Shown: piece after piece, positions 5,654 through 24,463 of the stretch
How the letters are laid out: the number at the start of each line of letters is the position of its first letter
How positions within the stretch are numbered: the stretch's first letter is position 1
Assembly (NCBI RefSeq): GCF_003206715.1
Contig: NZ_PZJU01000048.1
Location: forward strand, 1-64,000
Origin: Salinicola peritrichatus
GTDB lineage: Bacteria > Pseudomonadota > Gammaproteobacteria > Pseudomonadales > Halomonadaceae
DNA: 64,000 nt
Reading direction: 5' to 3'
Made by a program: the position numbers and the translations under genes
Notes under the pieces: model-generated
What the model was told of the DNA's origin: nothing
What the model saw: only the letters and a program-made list of their open reading frames with translations
Databases searched by the model: none

Positions 5654-5813
5654 AATGGCCGTGCGGTGGACGCATGTAGTCAGGATTGCCCGGCGGGAAC
5701 GACCCCGCTCGGTCACGATGTCGAGACACGATGCCAAGGCGGGTGAAAGACAAGTTGCATCCGGCCTAATGCCGGAAGATGAATGAGTATCCACCATCAC
5801 TGCAGGAGGCAAC

Positions 5814-7391
5814 ATGAATCTGACAGGTGAAATGCTGATCGGTCAGCAGGCCGTCAAGGGTAGTCGCGATCCGATCCAGGCGATCAATCCGGCGACCAAC
5901 GAGCGCTTGGATCCGAGCTATCCCGGTGGCACTCAGACCGAAGTCGATCGCGCCTGCGAACTGGCGTGGAGTGCCTTCGACAGCTATCGCGAAACCTCGC
6001 TGGAGGAGCGCGCCACGTTTCTGGAAACCGTTGCCGACGAGATCGAAGCGATCGGTGATGACCTGATCGAGCGTGCCGTGGCCGAGTCCGGTCTGCCGCA
6101 GGGTCGTATCCAGGGCGAGCGGGGTCGTACCTGCGGTCAGTTGCGGCTGTTCGCGCGGGTGGTGCGCGACGGCGAATGGCTCGACGTGCGCGTCGACCCG
6201 GCGCTGCCGGATCGCCAGCCGCTGCCGCGCAACGACCTGCGTCAGCGCCAGATCGCCCTCGGTCCGGTGGTGGTATTCGGCGCCAGCAACTTCCCGCTGG
6301 CGTTCTCCGTCGCCGGCGGCGACACCGCCTCCGCGCTGGCCGCCGGCTGTCCGGTGATCGTCAAGGCGCACTCCGCGCATCCCGGCACCAGCGAACTGGT
6401 CGGCCGCGCGATCCAGGCGGCGGTCAAGAAGTGTGGGCTGCCGGAAGGCGTGTTCTCGCTGATGTTCGGTTCCGGGCGCGAAGTCGGCCAGGCGCTGGTC
6501 ACCGATCCGCGCATCAAGGCCGCCGGCTTCACCGGTTCGCGCAGCGGCGGCCTGGCGCTGTGGAAAGCCGCGCAGTCGCGCCCCGAGCCGATCCCGTTCT
6601 ATGCCGAGATGAGTTCGATCAACCCGGTGTTCCCGCTGCCGGCGGCGCTCAAGGCGCGTGGCCAGGAGATGGGCAAGGCGTTCGTCGGCTCGCTCAACAT
6701 GGGTGCCGGCCAGTTCTGCACCAATCCGGGGCTGGTGATCGCGATCAAAGGGCCGGAACTGGATGCCTTCGTCGCCGCCGCCGGTGACGCGGTCAAGGCC
6801 AGCGCTGCCCAGACCATGCTCACGCCGGGAATCTTCGAAGCCTACGAAAGTGGCGTCAAAGGCCTGGCCGGCAGCGGCAAGGCGCGCGAAGTCGCGCGTG
6901 GCCAGAAGGGCGAGGGGCCGAACCAGTGCCAGACCGGCCTGTTCGTGACCTCGGCGCAGGATTTCCTCGGTAACGAAGCGCTGCAGGCGGAAATCTTCGG
7001 CTCCACCTCGCTGGTGGTCGAGTGCGCCGACGCGGCCGAACTCAAGCAGGTCGCCGAGCATCTGGAAGGCCAGCTGACCGCCACGCTGCAGATGGACGAT
7101 GCCGACATCGACGCCGCCAAGGCGCTGCTGCCGACGCTGGAACGCAAGGCAGGCCGTATTCTGGTCAATGGCTGGCCGACCGGGGTCGAGGTGTGCGACG
7201 CCATGGTCCACGGCGGGCCGTTCCCGGCGACCTCAGATTCGCGTACCACCTCCGTGGGCACCGCGGCGATCTTCCGCTTCCTGCGTCCGGTCTGCTACCA
7301 GGACCTGCCGGACGCGCTGTTGCCGGCGGCGCTCAAGCACGACAATCCGCTCAAGCTGCGGCGGCTGGTCGACGGCAAGCGCGAGGGCTGA
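5814..7391 (+). CDS. alpha-ketoglutarate semialdehyde dehydrogenase (2,5-dioxovalerate dehydrogenase)
   Basis: 525 residues; ATG with GCAGGAGG upstream. NAD(P)-dependent aldehyde dehydrogenase of the long KGSADH group, oxidising 2,5-dioxopentanoate to 2-oxoglutarate. Visible are Asn159 in FGASNFP, Lys184 in [11 protein letters not shown], Glu265 (YAEMSSINP) and the nucleophile Cys302 in [10 protein letters not shown]. The C-terminal part, with [10 protein letters not shown] and RTTSVG, is characteristic of this clade. It completes the hexarate route and delivers carbon to the TCA cycle. A strong terminator follows the gene. Confidence 0.92.
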
Positions 7392-7440
7392 TTCGCCCAA
7401 TCATCGCGGCGACATCGTCGCGTCGTAGGCTGATCTAGCG

Positions 7441-7470
7441 AAGGCCACTCCTCACGGGGTGGCCTTTTTC
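7441..7470 (+). terminator. rho-independent terminator after the glucarate operon
   Basis: The stem AAGGCCACTCC pairs with GGGGTGGCCTT (10 of 11 positions), followed by a five-T run at 7465-7469. It closes the kdgD-gudD-dehydrogenase transcript. Confidence 0.9.
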
Positions 7471-7651
7471 ATGAATGGCTGGCGTGCTGGCCGGCGAATC
7501 ATCCGCTATTTCGCCGGCCTTCCGGCCATCGTGAAGCCTCGCCGGCTTTTCAGACAGAACGTGGGCATAGGTCGCTGGCGAGGTGCGGGATATGGCATAA
7601 CATGAGCAATCGATAACCGTACAAAGACAACGAATCACGGGTAGGTTGCCA

Positions 7652-9073
7652 ATGGCCGAACATACGATCGACATCGGAAGCCGGCGCTATCGCTTCGACA
7701 GCCTCGGGGCGCTGATGGCCGCCGCCACGCCCCGGCGTTCCGGCGACGAATTGGCGGGCATCGCCGCCGCCAGCGCCGAGGAGCGCGCCGCTGCCCAGAT
7801 GGCGCTGGCCGAACTGCCATTGAGGCGGTTTCTGGAAGAGCCGCTGATCCCCTACGAGGAAGACGAAATCACCCGGCTGATCCTCGACCGCCATGACCGC
7901 GGCGCCTTCGCCCCGGTCGCCGGCCTGAGCGTCGGCGAGTTCCGCAACTGGCTGCTCTCCGAGCGCGCCGATGGCGAATCGCTGGCCCGGCTGGCGCCCG
8001 GGCTGACGCCGGAGATGGTGGCGGCGGTATCCAAGCTGATGCGGGTTCAGGATCTGGTGCTGGCGGCGCGCAAGTGCCGGGTGGTGACGCGCTTTCGCAA
8101 TACCATCGGCCTGCCCGGACGGCTGTCGACCCGGCTGCAGCCCAACCATCCCACCGACGATGCCAGCGGCATCGCCGCCAGCATTCTCGATGGCCTGCTC
8201 TACGCCAGCGGCGACGCGGTGATCGGCATCAATCCGGCCGGCGACAACACCGGCACGGTGGTGACACTGTTGAAGATGCTCGACGAGATCATCGCTCGCT
8301 ACGAGATCCCCACCCAGAGCTGCGTGCTGACCCATGTCACCACCGCGATCGAAGCGATCGAACGTGGCGCGCCCACCGATCTGGTATTCCAGTCGATCGC
8401 CGGCACCGAGGCGGCCAATCGCGGTTTCGGCATCGATCTGGCGCTGCTGCGGGAAGGCCGCGAGGCGGCGTTGTCGCTGCATCGGGGCACGCTGGGCAAC
8501 AACGTGATGTACTTCGAGACCGGCCAGGGCAGCGCGCTCTCCGCCGACGCCCATCACGGCCTCGACCAGCAGACGCTGGAGGCGCGCGCCTACGCCGTGG
8601 CCCGCGAGTTCGAGCCGCTGCTGGTCAATACCGTGGTCGGCTTCATCGGCCCCGAATACCTGTTCGACGGCAAGCAGATCATCCGCGCCGGGCTGGAGGA
8701 TCACTTCTGCGGCAAGCTGCTCGGGGTGCCGATGGGTTGCGACATCTGCTACACCAACCACGCCGAAGCCGACCAGGACGACATGGACATGCTGCTGACG
8801 CTGCTCGGCGCCGCCGGCTGCCATTACATCATGGGCATTCCCGGCTCCGACGACATCATGCTCAACTACCAGACCACCTCGTTCCACGACGCGCTCTACC
8901 TGCGTCAGGTGCTCGGCCTGCGTCCGGCACCGGAGTTCGAAGAGTGGCTCGAGACCAGCGGCATCTATCGCCACGGCCACGGCATCGCCTTCGAGCGCGA
9001 GCTGCCGGCGCGCTTCCAGGCGGTGCTGGGGCAGGCGCAAGCGGACGCCACCGGCGAGGAGGCGGCGCCATGA
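7652..9073 (+). CDS. eutB: ethanolamine ammonia-lyase large (catalytic) subunit
   Basis: 473 residues from the ATG at 7652; a TTG two codons upstream is in frame. Adenosylcobalamin-dependent TIM-barrel enzyme splitting ethanolamine to acetaldehyde and ammonia. Recognisable stretches are LSTRLQPNHPTDD, INPAGDNTGTVV, VFQSIAGTEAAN, MGCDICYTNHAEADQDDMD and MGIPGSDDIMLNYQTTS. The start of eutC overlaps its stop (ATGA). No microcompartment shell, EutA reactivase or EutR is in the window, so this is the two-gene, non-compartmentalised form. No B12 riboswitch was recognised in the 180 bases upstream. Confidence 0.95.
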   Translation: MAEHTIDIGSRRYRFDSLGALMAAATPRRSGDELAGIAAASAEERAAAQMALAELPLRRFLEEPLIPYEEDEITRLILDRHDRGAFAPVAGLSVGEFRNWLLSERADGESLARLAPGLTPEMVAAVSKLMRVQDLVLAARKCRVVTRFRNTIGLPGRLSTRLQPNHPTDDASGIAASILDGLLYASGDAVIGINPAGDNTGTVVTLLKMLDEIIARYEIPTQSCVLTHVTTAIEAIERGAPTDLVFQSIAGTEAANRGFGIDLALLREGREAALSLHRGTLGNNVMYFETGQGSALSADAHHGLDQQTLEARAYAVAREFEPLLVNTVVGFIGPEYLFDGKQIIRAGLEDHFCGKLLGVPMGCDICYTNHAEADQDDMDMLLTLLGAAGCHYIMGIPGSDDIMLNYQTTSFHDALYLRQVLGLRPAPEFEEWLETSGIYRHGHGIAFERELPARFQAVLGQAQADATGEEAAP

Positions 9074-9894
9074 GCGGGGATGATGGGCAGCGCGAAATCA
9101 CCGTCGACAACCCCTGGCAGCGGCTGCGCGAGTTAACCGACGCGCGGATCGGCCTGGGGCGCGTCGGCGGCAGCCTGCCCACGGCGGCGCAACTGGCGTT
9201 CCAGATGGATCACGCCCGTGCCCGCGACGCGGTGCACATGGCGCTGGATACCGAACGCCTGATGCCGGAGCTGGATGAGCGCTTCGCGCTGGCGCTGCGG
9301 TTGCACAGCCAGGCCGCCGACCGCAGCGAGTACCTGCGCCGGCCGGACCTCGGGCGGCGCTTGAGCGAAGCCTCGCGGCAGGAACTGGCGCGCCTGCCGG
9401 CCGGGAGTTGCGACGTCTCGATCTGCGTGGTCGATGGGCTTTCCGCGCGGGCGATCCACGAGCAGGCGATCCCGTTCCTGGATGCCGCGCTGCCGGAGAT
9501 CGAACGGCTGGGGCTGTCGCCGGGGCCGGTGGCACTGGTCGAGCAGGGGCGGGTGGCGATCGGCGACCCGATCGGCGAGGCGCTCGGTGCGCGCATGAGC
9601 GTGGTGCTGATCGGCGAGCGCCCCGGGCTCAGCTCGCCGGACAGCCTGGGGCTCTACTTCACCTGGGCGCCGAGAGCCGGGCGCCGCGACAGCGAGCGCA
9701 ACTGTATCTCCAACATCCGCCCGCGCGGCTTGAGTTATGCCAATGCCGCCAGGCTGCTCGCCTACCTGATGCGCCAGGCCCAGGCACTGGGCGCCTCCGG
9801 CGTGGTGCTCAAGGATGACAGCGAGGTCGATTCACGACTGGGCGATGGGCGAACCGGCAATTTCCTGTTGCCGCCCGTGACCGGGGCGCCTTGA
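9070..9894 (+). CDS. eutC: ethanolamine ammonia-lyase small subunit
   Basis: 274 residues; the ATG overlaps the eutB stop by 4 bases, indicating translational coupling. EutC forms the cobalamin-holding partner of EutB. Family signatures seen are GRVGGSLPT, LDFALAHARARDAV-like QMDHARARDAVH, CVVDGLSARAIHEQA, GRVAIGDPIGE and LIGERPGLSSPDSLGLYFTWAP. Length is usual. The acetaldehyde and ammonia formed would feed central metabolism, but no acetaldehyde dehydrogenase sits next to it. Confidence 0.95.
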   Translation: MSGDDGQREITVDNPWQRLRELTDARIGLGRVGGSLPTAAQLAFQMDHARARDAVHMALDTERLMPELDERFALALRLHSQAADRSEYLRRPDLGRRLSEASRQELARLPAGSCDVSICVVDGLSARAIHEQAIPFLDAALPEIERLGLSPGPVALVEQGRVAIGDPIGEALGARMSVVLIGERPGLSSPDSLGLYFTWAPRAGRRDSERNCISNIRPRGLSYANAARLLAYLMRQAQALGASGVVLKDDSEVDSRLGDGRTGNFLLPPVTGAP

Positions 9895-9960: not shown

Positions 9961-10028
9961 TCCATCCTTCGCGCGCAAGCTGGGCCTCGATCCGCACAGG
10001 CAACAATTCAACGACGCGGGAGAGAACC

Positions 10029-11543
10029 ATGAAACGCCCCAATGTTTTGATACTGATGGCCGATCAGGTCAACGGTACGCTATTCGACGATGGTCCGGCC
10101 GACTTCCTGCACATGCCGCATCTGAAGGCGCTGGCGGAGCGCTCGGTGCGTTTTCGTAATGCCTACACCCCGAGTCCGCTGTGCGCGCCGGGCCGGGCGG
10201 CCTTCATGTCGGGCCAGTTGCCTTCGCGCACCGGCGTCTACGACAACGCCGCCGAATTCCCTTCCAGCATCCCGACCTGGGCGCACCATCTGCGGCGCAG
10301 CGGCTACCACACCTGCCTGTCGGGCAAGATGCACTTCGTCGGTCCGGATCAGCTGCATGGTTTCGAACAGCGCCTGACCACCGACGTCTATCCGGCCGAC
10401 TTCGGCTGGACGCCGGACTATCGCAAGCCGGGCGAGCGCATCGACTGGTGGTATCACAACCTGGGTTCGGTCACCGGCGCCGGGGTGGCCGAGATCTCCA
10501 ACCAGATGGAGTACGACGACGAAGTCGCCTTCCTCGCCGAACAGAAGCTCTACGATCTGGCGCGCGGTCATGACCTCCGGCCCTGGGCGATGTGCGTGAG
10601 TTTCACCCATCCCCACGACCCCTACGTGGCGCGGCGCCAGTTCTGGGAGCTCTACGAAGACTGCGAGCATCTCGAGCCGACACTGGGCACGGTGCCCTAC
10701 GAGGAACAGGACCCGCATTCCCAGCGGCTCTATGTCGCCAACGACTATACGAAGTTCGATATCCAGCCCGAGCATGTGCGGCGCGCCCGGCGCGGCTACT
10801 TCGCCAATCTCTCCTACGTCGACGACAAGGTCGGCGGCATTCTCGACGTGCTCGAACGCACGCGGATGCTCGACGACACCATCGTGCTGTTCGTCTCCGA
10901 CCATGGCGACATGCTCGGCGAGCGCGGGCTATGGTTCAAGATGAGCCCGTTCGAAGGCTCGTCGCGGGTACCGCTGATGATCGCCGCGCCCGGCGTCGAG
11001 CCTCGCGGAGTGGACGATCCGGTCTCGTCGCTCGACGTCAACGCCACCCTGGCCGATCTGGTCGGCATCGACCTTTCCGACATCGAGCCCTGGACCGACG
11101 GCGAGTCGCTGCTGCCGCTGATGCATGGCGCGAAACGCGAAACCCCGGTCTACATGGAGTATGCCGCCGAGGGCACCAACGCACCGCTGGTGACGATTCG
11201 CCAGGGCCGCTACAAGTTCAACCACTGCGAGCTCGATCCGCCGCAACTGTTCGACCTCGAGGCCGATCCGCTGGAGCAGCGCAACCTGGCCGACGATCCG
11301 GAGCATGCCGGCATCTTCGCCGACCTGCAGCGCCAATGCCGCGAGCGCTGGGACATGACCCAATTCGACGCCGAGGTACGCGAGAGCCAGGCGCGGCGGC
11401 TGATCGTCTACGAGGCATTGCGCAACGGCGCCTACTATCCGTGGGATCACCAGCCGCTACGCGTGGCCTCCGAGCGCTACATGCGCAATCACATGGACCT
11501 CAACATATTGGAAGAGTCCCAGCGCTTCCCGCGCGGGGAGTAG
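10029..11543 (+). CDS. betC: choline sulfatase
   Basis: 504 residues; ATG with GGGAGAG 8 bases upstream. Type I sulfatase hydrolysing choline-O-sulfate to choline and sulfate. Cys52 in PLCAPGRAAF is the residue converted to formylglycine (CxPxR with Arg56); Asp12 in MADQ and the FVSDHGDMLGE segment hold the metal. The C-terminal region with RNGAYYPWDHQP is characteristic of the choline-specific group. Choline would feed glycine-betaine synthesis, a typical halophile osmoprotectant route, but betIBA are not in the window. Confidence 0.93.
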   Translation: MKRPNVLILMADQVNGTLFDDGPADFLHMPHLKALAERSVRFRNAYTPSPLCAPGRAAFMSGQLPSRTGVYDNAAEFPSSIPTWAHHLRRSGYHTCLSGKMHFVGPDQLHGFEQRLTTDVYPADFGWTPDYRKPGERIDWWYHNLGSVTGAGVAEISNQMEYDDEVAFLAEQKLYDLARGHDLRPWAMCVSFTHPHDPYVARRQFWELYEDCEHLEPTLGTVPYEEQDPHSQRLYVANDYTKFDIQPEHVRRARRGYFANLSYVDDKVGGILDVLERTRMLDDTIVLFVSDHGDMLGERGLWFKMSPFEGSSRVPLMIAAPGVEPRGVDDPVSSLDVNATLADLVGIDLSDIEPWTDGESLLPLMHGAKRETPVYMEYAAEGTNAPLVTIRQGRYKFNHCELDPPQLFDLEADPLEQRNLADDPEHAGIFADLQRQCRERWDMTQFDAEVRESQARRLIVYEALRNGAYYPWDHQPLRVASERYMRNHMDLNILEESQRFPRGE

Positions 11544-19293: not shown

Positions 19294-20661
19294 TCAAATC
19301 ACGTTCGGAGCCCAACGTCGATGCCAATCGGTCTCCTGCTGATAACGGTGGCCGACATGAATCAGACGTTGTTCCTCCAGGCTGGGAGCGATCAACTGCA
19401 TCCCGACCGGAAGCTGCGTGTCGGTGCTCAGACCTACCGGGAGGACGAGTGTCGGCACGCCCAGATTGGTGAACGGCAGATTGAAGGCTGGTGACCCGGT
19501 CGCATGCAGTCCCAGAGGCGCCGTCGTGGGTGCGGCTGGGGTCATCAGCAGATCGATTTCGTCGTATAAGCTGGCGAAGACCTGGCGATACTGCTGGCGG
19601 ACGCGCTGGGCCCGCAGGTAGTCGTTGGCGGATATAGTGAGCCCCTCGGAGATGAATGCCTGCAGGTATTCGCCGTAGCGCTGCGGGTGCTGATGGTAGC
19701 GATCTGCATGGAAATTGGTCGTTTCGGCCTGCATGACGATCTGCTGTGCTGCAACAGCGTCCTCGAACCCTGGCGGCGGCGCAATATCGATACAGCGTAC
19801 GCCCAGCGTTTCCAGCGTTCGCCGGGCGTCATCGAGCGCCGCAACGACATCGCCGTCCTCGGTGGCGAAGTGCGGATGCTGCAGCCAGCCGATGGTTTGA
19901 CCCGCGATCTCGCCCTGCAGCGACAACGATTGAGCGGGCAGCGTCCAGGTGGTCTCGTCACGCGGATCCGGCCCTGCTAGCGCCTGATAAACCAGCAGGC
20001 TGTCCTCGACGCTGCGGGTAAAGGCGCCGACGTGGTCCAGGCTCCAACTGGCGGGGATCACTCCGGCCTTGCTGATTCGCCCATAACTGGCCTTTAGCAC
20101 GGTCAGTCCATTGTAGGCGGCGGGGCGCGATAGCGACCCAGCAGTCTGCGTGCCGAGCGCGGTCATGACCATGCCGGCGGCGACCGCGGCTGCCGAACCG
20201 CTACTGGAGCCGCCCGGTGTATGGCCGTCACGCCAGGGGTTGACGGTGGGCGGGGGCGTGCCCCAGTTGGCGAATTCGGTGGTCGTCGTCTTGCCGATTA
20301 GGATTGCATCCTGGGCCGCCAGGCGCTCCACCGCGGTGGCGTCGTCTTCGCTGCGAAAGCCCTGCAGTACCCGGGAGCCGGCTTCGGTCGGAAAGTCCCG
20401 GGTATGGAAAATGTCCTTGGCTCCATAAGGAATCGCGAACAGGGGCGGCAATTCCTGTGTACGCGACAGGCGTGCGTCCAGCGCCAGCGCCTGGCGGCGG
20501 GCGCTCTCGATATCGTAAGTTACCCAGGCGTGAACATGAGGCTCCAGACGTGTCAGTCGGGTGAGAGACTCCTCGAGCAGTTCGCTGGGACTGATCTCGC
20601 GCCGACACAGCAGGCGGTGGGCCTCGACGATGGAACGTGGTTCAGGCACATGATCATTCAT
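19294..20661 (-). CDS. amidase-signature hydrolase linked to an ABC importer
   Basis: 455 residues from ATG 20661 with AGGAAG 9 bases upstream. Amidase-signature triad: Lys82 (IPYGAKDIF), the Ser-rich motif PGGSSSGSAAAVAAG at 149-163, and nucleophile Ser176 (GTQTAGSLSRPA). The family members closest in layout include AtzF/allophanate- and indoleacetamide-type hydrolases, but no specific substrate is evident. It is the last gene of a minus-strand run: ATPase, permease, binding protein, amidase. It probably hydrolyses what the importer brings in. Confidence 0.87.
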   Translation of the reverse strand: MNDHVPEPRSIVEAHRLLCRREISPSELLEESLTRLTRLEPHVHAWVTYDIESARRQALALDARLSRTQELPPLFAIPYGAKDIFHTRDFPTEAGSRVLQGFRSEDDATAVERLAAQDAILIGKTTTTEFANWGTPPPTVNPWRDGHTPGGSSSGSAAAVAAGMVMTALGTQTAGSLSRPAAYNGLTVLKASYGRISKAGVIPASWSLDHVGAFTRSVEDSLLVYQALAGPDPRDETTWTLPAQSLSLQGEIAGQTIGWLQHPHFATEDGDVVAALDDARRTLETLGVRCIDIAPPPGFEDAVAAQQIVMQAETTNFHADRYHQHPQRYGEYLQAFISEGLTISANDYLRAQRVRQQYRQVFASLYDEIDLLMTPAAPTTAPLGLHATGSPAFNLPFTNLGVPTLVLPVGLSTDTQLPVGMQLIAPSLEEQRLIHVGHRYQQETDWHRRWAPNVI

Positions 20662-20769: not shown

Positions 20770-21765
20770 TCACTGGGCGTTCTCCTCAAGAGCGGTCTCG
20801 GCGAAACTGGGATCGACGATGTCGTCATAGACCATGTCGCCGGTGATATTGCCGACGAACTTCTGCATGTCGATGGCATTATCGAAGGCTTGCTGAGTGA
20901 TCGTGACGTTGGGGGGGTAGACATTGCGATCGATCATGCGTTGCACGGCGTCATCGACAGTATCCCCGTCCAGACTGGCGAACTCTTCTCGGGCGACCGC
21001 CATGGCTGTTTCCGGATCGTCGTGGATCAAGTGCAGGGATTCGTTGATCGAACTGACAAAGCGTTGGACCAGACCAGGATCATCATCGATCAGCGACTGC
21101 GAGGTGTTGATGGTCGAGAAGGCATACTCGGGATAATCCTGGGTGTAGTCATGAATGATCTTCAGGCCCTGGGAGATGCCCTGCTCGGCCTGTGGCTGAT
21201 AGACCACGGCGACATCGGCACGCCCCGCCAGCACCGGCCCGAGCTCCGAACCGTTCTGCACTTCGGAGACATGTACATCACCTTGATAGGTCAGGTCGTT
21301 GTCGGCCAGCAGGCGCTTCAGCAGCGTGTTGGAGGTCCCCGGGGCCAGACCGACGGCCACCGTCTTGCCTTTCAGATCGGCTGGGCCGTCGTACTCGAAT
21401 TCGGGCTTGGCCAGCGCCCACACCGGAGCGCTGTTGGCGACGGCGCTGACGGCCTTGGCATGACCGCCTTTTTCCTGAGCGAAGCCGACATGCTCTGGGC
21501 CATGAACCGAGAACTGCGCCTCGCCGGCCAACACCGAGGCCAGTGCGGTGGGACCCGATCCCGCCGAGCGCACTACTGGTACATCGATGCCGTGGGCGGC
21601 GAAAATACCTTCGTGACGGGCCACATAGACCGGCAAGTAGAGCAGACTGTGGAAGGCCTCGGTGACCAGGATGGTATCCGGATCGCCATCAGCGGCTTGG
21701 GTGGCAGGCAGCCAGCTCAAGCTGCAGAGCAGCAGGGGTAGGGCGAGGAGACGAGACGCTTTCAT
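20770..21765 (-). CDS. ABC transporter substrate-binding protein (NMT1/SsuA-like)
   Basis: 331 residues. Signal peptide 1-24 (MKASRLLALPLLLCSLSWLPATQA). The mature part shows the NMT1/THI5/nitrate-sulfonate-taurine binding fold: ILVTEAFHSLLYLPVYVARHEGIFAAHG, then GSGPTALASVLAGEAQFSVHGPEH and DLKGKTVAVGLAPGTSNTLLKRLL. Family members bind sulfonates, thiamin pyrimidines, nitrate, riboflavin or other small N/S compounds; the ligand is not known here. It is followed downstream by the amidase, suggesting an amide ligand (inference). Confidence 0.86.
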   Translation of the reverse strand: MKASRLLALPLLLCSLSWLPATQAADGDPDTILVTEAFHSLLYLPVYVARHEGIFAAHGIDVPVVRSAGSGPTALASVLAGEAQFSVHGPEHVGFAQEKGGHAKAVSAVANSAPVWALAKPEFEYDGPADLKGKTVAVGLAPGTSNTLLKRLLADNDLTYQGDVHVSEVQNGSELGPVLAGRADVAVVYQPQAEQGISQGLKIIHDYTQDYPEYAFSTINTSQSLIDDDPGLVQRFVSSINESLHLIHDDPETAMAVAREEFASLDGDTVDDAVQRMIDRNVYPPNVTITQQAFDNAIDMQKFVGNITGDMVYDDIVDPSFAETALEENAQ

Positions 21766-21836: not shown

Positions 21837-22667
21837 TCAGCGACTCTCCCAAGGCAGCAGGTGTCTTTCGATCCTGGATACCACGAGATAGAGTGCAATG
21901 GCGACGAGCATCAGGGTCAGCACGCCAACCCATACCGCGTTCAGGTTGAACAGGTTGCCGGCAACGAATATCGAGCGGCCGAGCCCCTTGTCCGAGGCGA
22001 TGAACTCGCCGCCGATCTCGGCGATCAGGGCAAAGCCGATGTTGAGGCGGAAGGCGGAGATGATCCACGGCAGGGTCGCGGGGACAACTACCTTGAGGAA
22101 GATCTGACGCTTGGTGGCGCCCAATGAGCGCATCAGGTTGACCAGGTTGGCATCGATCTGGTGAGTACCTTGGTAGGCGCTCAGCAACGCGACGATGAAG
22201 GTGGCGATGAACGCCAGTGCCACCTTGGACAGCATGCCCGAGCCGAACCAGATAATGATCATCGGTGCCAGCGAGATCTTGGGCAGCCCGTTGAGGGCGA
22301 CCACGAAGGGATCGATGATGCGGGCGACATGGCGCGAATACCACAGCAGCAGGCCGGCCATCGAGCCGCCGATACTACCCAGCAGGAAACCGACGATGGT
22401 GGCGTAGAGCGTGGTCCAGGTGTCGCTGAGTAATTGCCCGCTTTGCAACTGGCGCCAAGCTTCGATGGCAATGCCTCCGGGCGAGCCCATCAGGAAGGCG
22501 TTGACCCAGCCGAAGTCGACCGCGAACTGCCAGGCGACGATCAGTACCGCGACGATGGCCAGCCGCCATAGGTTCTCCTTCCATAGATGATGATCCTGGT
22601 GCTTCCTGGGTTTGGTCTCGTCGGCCGAAACTTCGATACGCCTGGTATAGAGCGATGCCGTGCTCAC
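21837..22667 (-). CDS. ABC transporter permease (SsuC/TauC type)
   Basis: 276 residues, about six membrane helices beginning at LWRLAIVAVLIVAWQFAVDF. It has the binding-protein-dependent transport EAA loop SLGATKRQIFLKVVVPATLPWIISAFRLNIG (Gly in the expected place), which contacts the ATPase. A hydrophilic N-terminus of about 33 residues is usual. Its ATG overlaps the stop of the upstream ATPase gene by 4 bases. It forms the channel of the importer with 20770 and 22664. Confidence 0.88.
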   Translation of the reverse strand: MSTASLYTRRIEVSADETKPRKHQDHHLWKENLWRLAIVAVLIVAWQFAVDFGWVNAFLMGSPGGIAIEAWRQLQSGQLLSDTWTTLYATIVGFLLGSIGGSMAGLLLWYSRHVARIIDPFVVALNGLPKISLAPMIIIWFGSGMLSKVALAFIATFIVALLSAYQGTHQIDANLVNLMRSLGATKRQIFLKVVVPATLPWIISAFRLNIGFALIAEIGGEFIASDKGLGRSIFVAGNLFNLNAVWVGVLTLMLVAIALYLVVSRIERHLLPWESR

Positions 22668-23503
22668 GATGCCGGCCCTCCCATCTGAATGTCGAGATCG
22701 GCCCAGATCTGGTCGAACAGAGTCTGGTATCGGGGATCGCTGCGGGCCTTGAGACAGGAGCCCAGTCGGCGCGACAGGCCGACCTCGTAGAGTCGCTTGA
22801 CTGAGGTCGGACGCTGGGTCATGACCGCGACGCGATCCGACATTGCGATTGCCTCGCCAATGTCGTGGGTGATCAGCACCACCGTCTTGTCGAACGACTT
22901 GAGGATTGACAGGATCTCCTCTTCCAGCACCAGTCGGGTCTGGTAGTCGAGCGCCGAGAACGGTTCGTCGAGCAGGATCACATCGGGATCGGTGATCAGG
23001 GTGCGAATCAGCGCCACCCGTTGGCGCATGCCGCCGGACAGCGTATGTGGGTAGGCGTCGGCGAAATCCGCCAGGTTGTAGCGCTCCAGATGCTCGCGGG
23101 ACATCGCCAGACGTCTGGCGCGGGGAACACCGGCCACCTCGAGTCCGAGAGCGACGTTCTCCAGTATGGTCCTCCAGGGGAACAGCAGATCGCGCTGCAG
23201 CATGTAGCCGATGTGGGCGCCACGGATCGGGTGGCTGCCGCGCAGGGTGATGCTGCCGGCGCTGGGTTCGAGCAGGTTGGCGATGATGTTGAACATCGTG
23301 CTCTTGCCGCAGCCGCTGGGCCCGACGATGCTGATGAACTCGTGCTCCCGAATATCCAGGGTAATGTCACGGATCACCGGGATCGGATTGCCCTGCTTGT
23401 CCTCGAAGTGCTTTTCGACATGATCCAGGGCGATCGCGACGTCAGCGCCGACGCTGGGTATCGCCGCGGTTTCGCGCAGTGGCGTGGAGAGGGTCATTGC
23501 CAT
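22664..23503 (-). CDS. ABC transporter ATP-binding protein (SsuB/TauB type)
   Basis: 279 residues. Walker A GPSGCGKST, Q-loop YMLQRDLLFPWRT, signature LSGGMRQRVALIRTL, Walker B VILLDEPFSALD, and switch His in VLITHDIGEA. The sequence type (PWRT after the Q-loop, LDYQTR) matches nitrate/sulfonate/taurine importers. It is the first gene of the minus-strand transport operon; the region in front (23504-23695) holds operator-like TGGTA/TACCA repeats. Confidence 0.9.
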   Translation of the reverse strand: MAMTLSTPLRETAAIPSVGADVAIALDHVEKHFEDKQGNPIPVIRDITLDIREHEFISIVGPSGCGKSTMFNIIANLLEPSAGSITLRGSHPIRGAHIGYMLQRDLLFPWRTILENVALGLEVAGVPRARRLAMSREHLERYNLADFADAYPHTLSGGMRQRVALIRTLITDPDVILLDEPFSALDYQTRLVLEEEILSILKSFDKTVVLITHDIGEAIAMSDRVAVMTQRPTSVKRLYEVGLSRRLGSCLKARSDPRYQTLFDQIWADLDIQMGGPAS

Positions 23504-23626
23504 GGCTCCTGACGGTTTGTGTTTGTTCGTCTTGTCGGAGTTCTGGCTGGCGTAGGCTCATGGCCGCGATCTTATGTGACCGTCCTGTGGGAGCGATCGT
23601 GAGATTGTCGCGGTTCGATGCGCGTC

Positions 23627-23650
23627 TGGTAAAACCTACCAAACTTACCA
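23627..23650. promoter_or_regulatory. TGGTA/TACCA repeats upstream of the ABC importer operon
   Basis: TGGTA at 23627-23631 and TACCA at 23637-23641 form a perfect dyad with 5 bases between. A third unit TACCA lies at 23646-23650, so ACCTACCAA and ACTTACCAA are near-tandem. It lies in the only free space between the importer operon and the MerR-fusion gene, the natural place for the operator of that regulator. The link is inferred from position. Confidence 0.5.
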
Positions 23651-23695
23651 AGCGTTATTATCATTACGCCTTTCCTCAGGCGGCTGTCAACCGCT

Positions 23696-24463
23696 TTACG
23701 CTAATTCGGCCAGCGTGCGAGAGAGCGTGGTGACTTCGGCGTAACGAGAATTGAGGTCAAGCAAGGTGAAGTCCTGCAGCGGCCGTGTGCGGTCGGCGAC
23801 GGCCTCGCTGGGAATTACCGTCCGGCGGCCGCTCTGGAACAGGTCGATGGCATTGGTGCGTATGCTGCCGCTGGTGGTAACTCCCGCCAGGACCACGGTG
23901 TCGATCCGATTTCGGTCCAGAAATGCTTCCAGCTTGGATGCCTTCAGATCCGAGACGTAGTAAGTACTGAGTTCCAGGTCGTAGGCGTAGTTCGCGAGGG
24001 CGTCATGCTTCCGGGTCCAGTGTGACTCCGCCTCAAGGATGCGCATGGCCGGAAATTTCTCGCCCCAGAGTGCCGAAAAGGCGTGGGCGGGGTCGTAGAT
24101 CGTGCGGCTGAATATCACCGGATGGCCGTGGGCGGCGAAGGTTTCGATCAGGGTGCGGGTCGCGGCAAGTTGATCGTCGAGTTGGACGCATAGCTGGCTT
24201 TCGGCGGCGCAGAAGCCTATGGTCAAGTCGCGAATCAGCAGCGCTGGCCTCCGGCCAAAAGCGAGCGGTGCCGAGAAGCCCTGCTGGGAATATAGGCGGC
24301 GCGTGGGATTGAACAGATATCGACGCTGTCCCCCAGGTGTGTAGATTACCGTCAGGCCGTAGCGGGTGAGCCCCCCTTCCACTTCCATACGACGCAGCGT
24401 GCTGGGTGACAAACCAAGTATTTTCGCGACTTCCGAGATCGTGGCGGGCTTGTTGTCATGCAT
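23696..24463 (-). CDS. MerR-type DNA-binding domain fused to an isochorismatase-like domain lacking catalytic residues
   Basis: 255 residues from ATG 24463; the frame is open to 24550. Residues 5-50 are a MerR-type winged helix (ATISEVAKILGLSPSTLRRMEVEGGL, then YTPGGQRRYL). Residues 72-245 match the isochorismatase/cysteine-hydrolase fold: PALLIRDLTIGF (Asp79 in the usual acid position), an ALWGEKFPAM region, and TVVLAGVTTSGSIRTNAIDL. In active members the last motif reads G-C-V/I-R; here Ser200 replaces the nucleophile Cys. The usual catalytic Lys, expected near 167, also appears to be absent (Thr by hand alignment). A ligand-sensing role instead of catalysis is inferred. It is placed beside the amidase/ABC importer operon. 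Confidence 0.82.
   Translation of the reverse strand: MHDNKPATISEVAKILGLSPSTLRRMEVEGGLTRYGLTVIYTPGGQRRYLFNPTRRLYSQQGFSAPLAFGRRPALLIRDLTIGFCAAESQLCVQLDDQLAATRTLIETFAAHGHPVIFSRTIYDPAHAFSALWGEKFPAMRILEAESHWTRKHDALANYAYDLELSTYYVSDLKASKLEAFLDRNRIDTVVLAGVTTSGSIRTNAIDLFQSGRRTVIPSEAVADRTRPLQDFTLLDLNSRYAEVTTLSRTLAELA

Follow-up and report, generated by a model that had tools for sequence, protein, structure and literature searches.

The fusion encoded at 23696-24463 of the window, by which we mean the whole 64,000-nucleotide stretch of Salinicola peritrichatus DNA analyzed here, is very probably a dead enzyme put to use as a regulator. Its two-domain architecture, the conserved loss of catalytic residues, the fold, the linkage to operons and a recurring motif with a 9-bp period all come directly from computation. 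An earlier note, made from the sequence alone, had proposed that an amidohydrolase was here turned into a regulator, and this proposal gained support from catalytic losses conserved across phyla, from fold matches to maleamate amidohydrolases, from operon linkage and from a candidate operator within the stretch that the note had singled out.

The fusion gene and its degenerate active site

The gene and the positions relevant to its active site are as follows.

23696-24463, minus strand: fusion regulator gene, 255 aa (ORF, Pfam, full-length homologues)
24317-24442, minus strand: MerR-type/BldC-like helix-turn-helix (HTH) core, residues 8-49 (Pfam PF00376, fold match)
23723-24244, minus strand: isochorismatase-like domain, residues 74-247, catalytically degenerate (PF00857, Foldseek)
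24227-24229, minus strand: codon of Asp79, the catalytic Asp, which is kept (alignments)
23963-23965, minus strand: codon of Thr167, at the position of the catalytic Lys (alignments)
23864-23866, minus strand: codon of Ser200, at the position of the nucleophile Cys (alignments)

The earlier note had placed a MerR domain and a cysteine-hydrolase fold in a single ORF at 23696-24463. The coordinates are right, with the gene on the minus strand, and the pairing was borne out by Pfam, where both domains score above their cut-offs (30.0 bits vs 28.2 for PF00376, MerR, over residues 8-49, and 78.9 bits vs 27 for PF00857, isochorismatase, over residues 74-247). The HTH domain extends to about residue 60 (24284). 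When aligned with solved relatives, namely N-carbamoylsarcosine amidohydrolase and the hydrolase 4l07/4l08 (maleamate amidase), Ser200 of the motif TTSGSIR falls in the column of the nucleophile Cys, Thr167 in that of the Lys and Asp79 in that of the Asp; we take these three columns to be the catalytic triad of the superfamily. The loss of Cys and Lys with retention of Asp79, noted earlier from the motif and, for Lys, from a hand alignment, is therefore correct, and it is conserved in the family described below.

The AlphaFold2 model of the fusion has a mean pLDDT of 88, with blocks of 57-82 across the first 70 residues. Its best Foldseek matches are NicF (3ot4/3uao) and maleamate amidase (4l08/4l07), with E-values from 6e-19 (NicF) to 8e-18 for 3ot4, 3uao and 4l08, and then N-carbamoylsarcosine amidohydrolase (1nba); TM-scores by target length reach 0.92. 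The overlay on 1nba suggested in the earlier note thus gave a match, ranked behind the maleamate amidohydrolases. Also listed are 6xjm, the Cys-to-Ser mutant C169S of a related biuret hydrolase in complex with its substrate, and 4l08 itself, a Cys-to-Ala mutant with maleate. Such mutants indicate that this fold can still bind a ligand once the nucleophile is gone.

The HTH, modelled alone with a pLDDT of 79, most resembles BldC (6ama/6amk), a weak match with E-values of 0.036-0.05 and an rmsd of 4.1; no match in this fold search fell below 0.001, and MarR-type folds came next (E 0.07). A profile search placed CarH (0.009) ahead of BldC (E 0.019-0.023). Between the HTH and the hydrolase domain, neither the alignment nor the model shows a coiled-coil dimerisation helix; the last helix there spans residues 53-60.

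Extent and conservation of the family

The homology search for the two-domain architecture, likewise suggested in the earlier note, revealed a conserved fusion family in Gammaproteobacteria and Bacillota. A non-exhaustive scan of contigs with two HTH-derived peptide patterns gave at least 26 loci, 22 of which match both domains and four the HTH only. The 22 two-domain loci (L036-L057) belong to Salinicola corii, Biostraticola tofi and 20 Bacillota, including one with a broken frame (L055), and two Peribacillus plasmids bear one additional, identical fusion copy. Among 196 relatives, a full-length fusion was found only in the window's own genome and in one genome of the same genus (G008). At least five of 397 genomes from the order of Bacillus sp. 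OV166 and at least four of 198 from the family of Biostraticola carry it. The family comprises at least 29 loci. In the tree, all of the 27 fusions but L103 group in a single clade (100/99), and L103 sits outside it on a long branch.

Several candidates were rejected. Three plasmid genes (H3, H4 and H7) are fusion-like by their coordinates and proved to be plain hydrolases with SGC, and in the Gemmatimonadota matches (L058-L061) similarity is confined to the HTH. Among the latter, L061 (173-445) encodes a 90 aa HTH protein with a similar wing, YGVKVYYTP, and is a clear short protein, unlike the inspected L058; it is possibly a free relative of the DNA-binding domain of the fusion. The Peribacillus plasmid copy (L031, 6983-7750) is annotated merely as an isochorismatase family protein, and its DNA-binding domain goes unmentioned.

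Conservation was scored in an alignment (A2) whose fusion rows are the window and 21 loci; L055, with its broken frame, and the two plasmid copies from Peribacillus (L031/L035, identical to each other) were omitted. Ser occupies the nucleophile column in 22/22 fusions and the catalytic Asp is present in 22/22, and Lys is found at its column in 0/22, where 20 have Thr, one Ser and one Leu. Arg78, beside Asp79, is present in all 22 aligned fusions and in none of the 14 aligned HTH-less paralogues, which indicates that the pocket of the fusion has changed. Outside this alignment, L031/L035, L055 and the later-found L102-L106 likewise carry Ser, and none of them has Lys in the catalytic column. 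Two of these fusions diverge further: Glu replaces the catalytic Asp in L102, and L103 has a Lys one position after the usual column and no Arg78. All 17 HTH-less paralogues that adjoin Bacillota fusions have both Cys and Lys; 14 were scored in A2 (Cys, Lys and Asp) and three (L031, L053 and L055) were read directly (Cys and Lys).

Gene neighbourhoods and a candidate operator

In the window, the fusion gene is followed on the same strand by the genes of an importer and an amidase.

22664-23503, minus strand: ABC importer ATPase (NitT/TauT type), the first gene past the candidate operator (Pfam; NCBIfam below cut-offs)
21837-22667, minus strand: ABC importer permease (PF00528)
20770-21765, minus strand: substrate-binding protein, NMT1/THI5-like (PF09084)
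19294-20661, minus strand: amidase-signature amidase (PF01425)

This set of ATPase, permease, NMT1-type binding protein and amidase stands beside the fusion in all six gammaproteobacterial genomes found with it (the window, S. corii, Biostraticola and three others of the Biostraticola family). Among the nearest solved relatives of the window amidase, a GatA comes first and malonamidase E2 second, and the latter relationship may lend weak backing to maleamate as the ligand. In Bacillota, the main context found is the maleamate (nicotinate/pyridine) pathway. When 21 loci are counted, leaving out L102 and L103, NicE-, NicD- or NicX-like genes occur in 16 and an HTH-less isochorismatase in 17; L042, L044 and L047 have neither. 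The identities of these pathway genes rest on representatives from L037, which match a 2,5-dihydroxypyridine dioxygenase (E 3e-97), a maleate cis-trans isomerase (E 6e-91), N-carbamoylsarcosine amidohydrolase (E 2e-59) and maleamate amidase (E 3e-42). For the NicD-like protein the search showed no more than an alpha/beta hydrolase; the NicC-like one is an FAD monooxygenase nearest to 3-hydroxybenzoate 6-monooxygenase, below the cut-off; both names were given because of the neighbouring genes.

The two divergent fusions have surroundings of their own. In L103 (4189-9127), the fusion lies with an isochorismatase that has SGC and Lys, an NMT1-type importer and a polysaccharide-deacetylase-like gene, so that this locus joins both contexts, an isochorismatase paralogue and an NMT1-type importer, beside one fusion. 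In L102 (9586-10380), the fusion stands opposite an operon of a luciferase-like monooxygenase and an alpha/beta hydrolase. The Salinicola genome itself holds, on another contig, a NicE/NicD/NicX/NicF-like cluster (L107, C15:40000-58000, at 5766-9100) whose NicF-like protein has Cys and Lys intact. The Biostraticola genome G201 has the fusion and gave no NicF-like match at E 1e-12, so that maleamate need not be the ligand everywhere. For the Bacillus niacini DSM 2923 cluster, the accessible text of the source names TetR and IclR regulators and not the fusion (PMC4256190).

A shared sequence, consisting of direct repeats, was spotted by eye in a listing of the gaps flanking fusion genes, the window among them. 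A matrix was then built from 14 of 22 Bacillota loci having GGTA(A/G)GTTT downstream of the fusion. The resulting site and two hexamers near it are listed here.

23632-23652, minus strand: candidate operator with the 9-bp direct repeats GGTAAGTTT GGTAGGTTT (matrix from 14 Bacillota sites)
23685-23690, minus strand: TTGACA, a possible -35 hexamer, weakly claimed (sequence)
23657-23662, minus strand: GATAAT, a possible -10 hexamer, 22 nt from TTGACA, weakly claimed (sequence)

The site lies between the fusion and the importer genes, inside the stretch 23504-23695 that the earlier note had named for binding tests. It is the best matrix site in the 64 kb, with 30.3 bits against 10.8 for the next, and none of 100 dinucleotide shuffles reached its score (shuffle maximum 17.6). 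The training data of this test are independent of the window, but the test was not blind, as the motif had first been noticed by eye in a set that included the window. The operator pattern, which has one match in the window where 0.01 would be expected, was written after the site had been seen. In the four Enterobacterales loci the best site is immediately before the ATPase gene; of 50 dinucleotide shuffles each, none reached it in L104 and L106, five did in L054 and three in L105. The 9-bp period is evident from the self-match at lag 9, with z 10.7 for the 14 Bacillota sites and z 8.1 for four gammaproteobacterial sites (two near-copies dropped); lag 10 is likewise raised at the Bacillota sites (z 6.6).

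In a leave-one-out test, where near-copies of a locus remained in training and only 10 block shuffles were used, the best site scored higher than any shuffle at 25 of the 29 loci with a fusion, the exceptions being L042, L102, L103 and L105. By this test, L102 and L103 have no operator of the common type. Eighteen further sites were picked from the same scan: 12 lie no more than 250 bp before HpaB, NicC-like, DctP, NicE-like or NicD-like genes or the fusion, and six do not; four of the 18 (both of L037, that of L050 at 6692 and that of L053 at 9929) score below their own shuffle maximum. The best sites of L044, L047 and L057 are not directly before a pathway gene. In L044 and L047 the operator-like sites lie upstream on the other strand, and no nic-type genes were found in the examined flanks.

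Loci without the fusion served as controls. In three of the four fusion-less importer loci seen (L120-L122, from another genus of the window's family), the importer proteins are 69-77% identical and the amidase is a different one (36-37%); no site was found there, the best scores of 3.8-6.8 being within the shuffle range. The fusion-less isochorismatase loci L124 and L125 gave no site either, and as both are without other pathway genes this is a weak control. A degenerate pattern allowing up to three mismatches matched in five of 12 genomes, that is, in five of the ten with the fusion and neither of the two without it, in one place per matched genome and always beside the fusion. The reversed control pattern matched in three of the 12 genomes, and thus the number of matches proves little and it is their position that carries weight. 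Control by the fusion of the nic-like cluster on contig C15 of its own genome was rejected, as no operator of the common type was found in L107 (best 9.3 bits).

The promoter arrangement is clearer in Bacillota. In all 13 loci tested (the 14 training loci minus L048), TTGACA-N17-TAnnnT precedes the site, at a distance of 17 bp in 11 and of 26 bp, one repeat more, in two. Sites positioned just downstream of the -10 speak for repression. At the window site, a promoter scan with 16-18 nt spacing found no sigma-70-type promoter.

Proposed mechanism, alternatives and known systems

We propose that the fusion acts as a one-component transcription regulator, in which a BldC-like MerR winged helix is joined to a dead domain of the maleamate-amidase type. 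When free of ligand, it would bind 9-bp direct repeats in tandem, which overlap the transcription start or lie just beyond it, and repress the operon, that of the importer and amidase in the window and that of the maleamate-pathway genes in Bacillota. A small amide or acid, at best guess maleamate or a close relative, would then fill the dead pocket, leading to release from the DNA and expression of the operon; the pocket, altered but kept, would hold this inducer much like a natural Cys-to-Ser substrate trap. We infer from the data described above that the fusion binds DNA, that it represses the operon and does not activate it, that it binds a ligand and what this ligand is; presumably it is the compound that the ancestor of the fusion hydrolysed. 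Maleamate is the leading candidate because of the fold and the operon. Considered as a whole, with DNA and ligand binding included, this explanation appears likely. Hydrolases of this superfamily form symmetric oligomers, with which head-to-tail DNA binding fits awkwardly, and this was counted against it.

The strongest competitor retains the protein and the operator and changes the ligand, which would be either the substrate of the importer or a pyridine compound from further up the pathway, recognized by a pocket of new specificity. That NicF is the closest fold and that maleamate-pathway-like genes occur in 16 of 21 Bacillota loci argues for maleamate. On the other side, gammaproteobacterial cassettes combine the importer with a different kind of amidase, G201 is without a NicF-like match, Arg78 distinguishes all 22 aligned fusions (L103 is without it) from the 14 paralogues, and L102, which lacks the Asp, adjoins a luciferase-like monooxygenase. 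We therefore give a ligand of this sort nearly, but not quite, an even chance. Activation of the MerR kind, by twisting a promoter with a long spacer, would suit the MerR-type HTH and the 22 nt between TTGACA and GATAAT in the window. It is nonetheless unlikely, as the 13 Bacillota loci tested have a normal 17 bp spacer with the site downstream of the -10, and no coiled-coil helix follows the HTH.

Retained activity must also be weighed. A serine-type or trigger enzyme that combines amide hydrolysis with DNA binding would fit the retention of both Ser and Asp throughout the 22 aligned fusions, but the same 22 lack Lys at its column and an HTH-less paralogue with Cys and Lys is present in 17 of 21 Bacillota loci, making this reading improbable. 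An ordinary enzyme with an alternative nucleophile was also rejected as the principal reading, since every fusion examined has Ser and is without Lys at its column. As for a decaying pseudogene or a chance fusion, the frame-broken L055 is the one case in its favor, whereas the other fusions, in Salinicola, Enterobacterales and Bacillota, share the same losses, the HTH wing and an open frame; this conservation refutes the pseudogene reading, to which we assign a negligible probability. In L055 itself (Neobacillus sp. PS3-12, 9983-10748), the fusion is split into two ORFs and the operator site and nic-type operon persist.

Returning to the repressor with a dead pocket, no isochorismatase-type regulator fused to a MerR/BldC domain was named among the literature matches listed (titles and abstract openings, with subscription journals mostly outside), nor did the same search find the fusion architecture, the operator or the link to maleamate catabolism. 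There is, in our view, a chance somewhat short of even that the family is a new class of one-component regulator, combining a direct-repeat binder of the BldC type with a maleamate amidase turned Cys-to-Ser trap that senses a maleamate-like amide, which spread between phyla together with its operator and serves pyridine catabolism in Bacillota and amide import in Gammaproteobacteria. Since 17 of 21 Bacillota loci contain both the dead fusion and a paralogue that retains its catalytic residues, they allow the route by which an enzyme became a sensor to be traced and tested. The fusion is a candidate regulator for the maleamate-pathway clusters of Bacillota and a candidate biosensor for maleamate-type amides, and it cautions that annotation as an isochorismatase family enzyme can conceal a regulator.

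Among known systems, NicF/Ami (3ot4, 3uao, 4l07 and 4l08) and 1nba have the same fold over residues of about 55-250 of the fusion and share with it the Asp, the TTSG loop and much of the core; the fusion differs from them in the changes of Cys to Ser and Lys to Thr, in the extra Arg78 and in its N-terminal HTH. Classical MerR regulators (CueR, SoxR and CarH) belong to the same HTH family and have their operator inside a long -35/-10 spacer, whereas the fusion is without a coiled coil and its promoter arrangement in Bacillota is different. NrtR, a Nudix-derived regulator, presumably works in the same manner, with an enzyme-fold sensor and a winged helix, in another fold and pathway. BldC, in the part of its description available to us, is a MerR-like protein of 68 residues with no effector domain, whose protomers sit head to tail on direct repeats of 9 bp (PMC5859096). 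The fusion resembles it in having a MerR-like winged helix without a coiled coil and, at its candidate sites, 9-bp direct repeats, and differs in being a two-domain protein of 255 aa with weak similarity. In BzdR, as far as the accessible text of the source goes, a DNA-binding domain is joined to a degenerate enzyme domain that is the effector sensor of a catabolic operon (PMC3602430), and as this is a precedent of an enzyme turned regulator, the kind is already known. The sensor of BzdR derives, by the same text, from shikimate kinase, a fold other than that of the fusion, and the two are alike in joining a degenerate enzyme domain to a DNA-binding domain.
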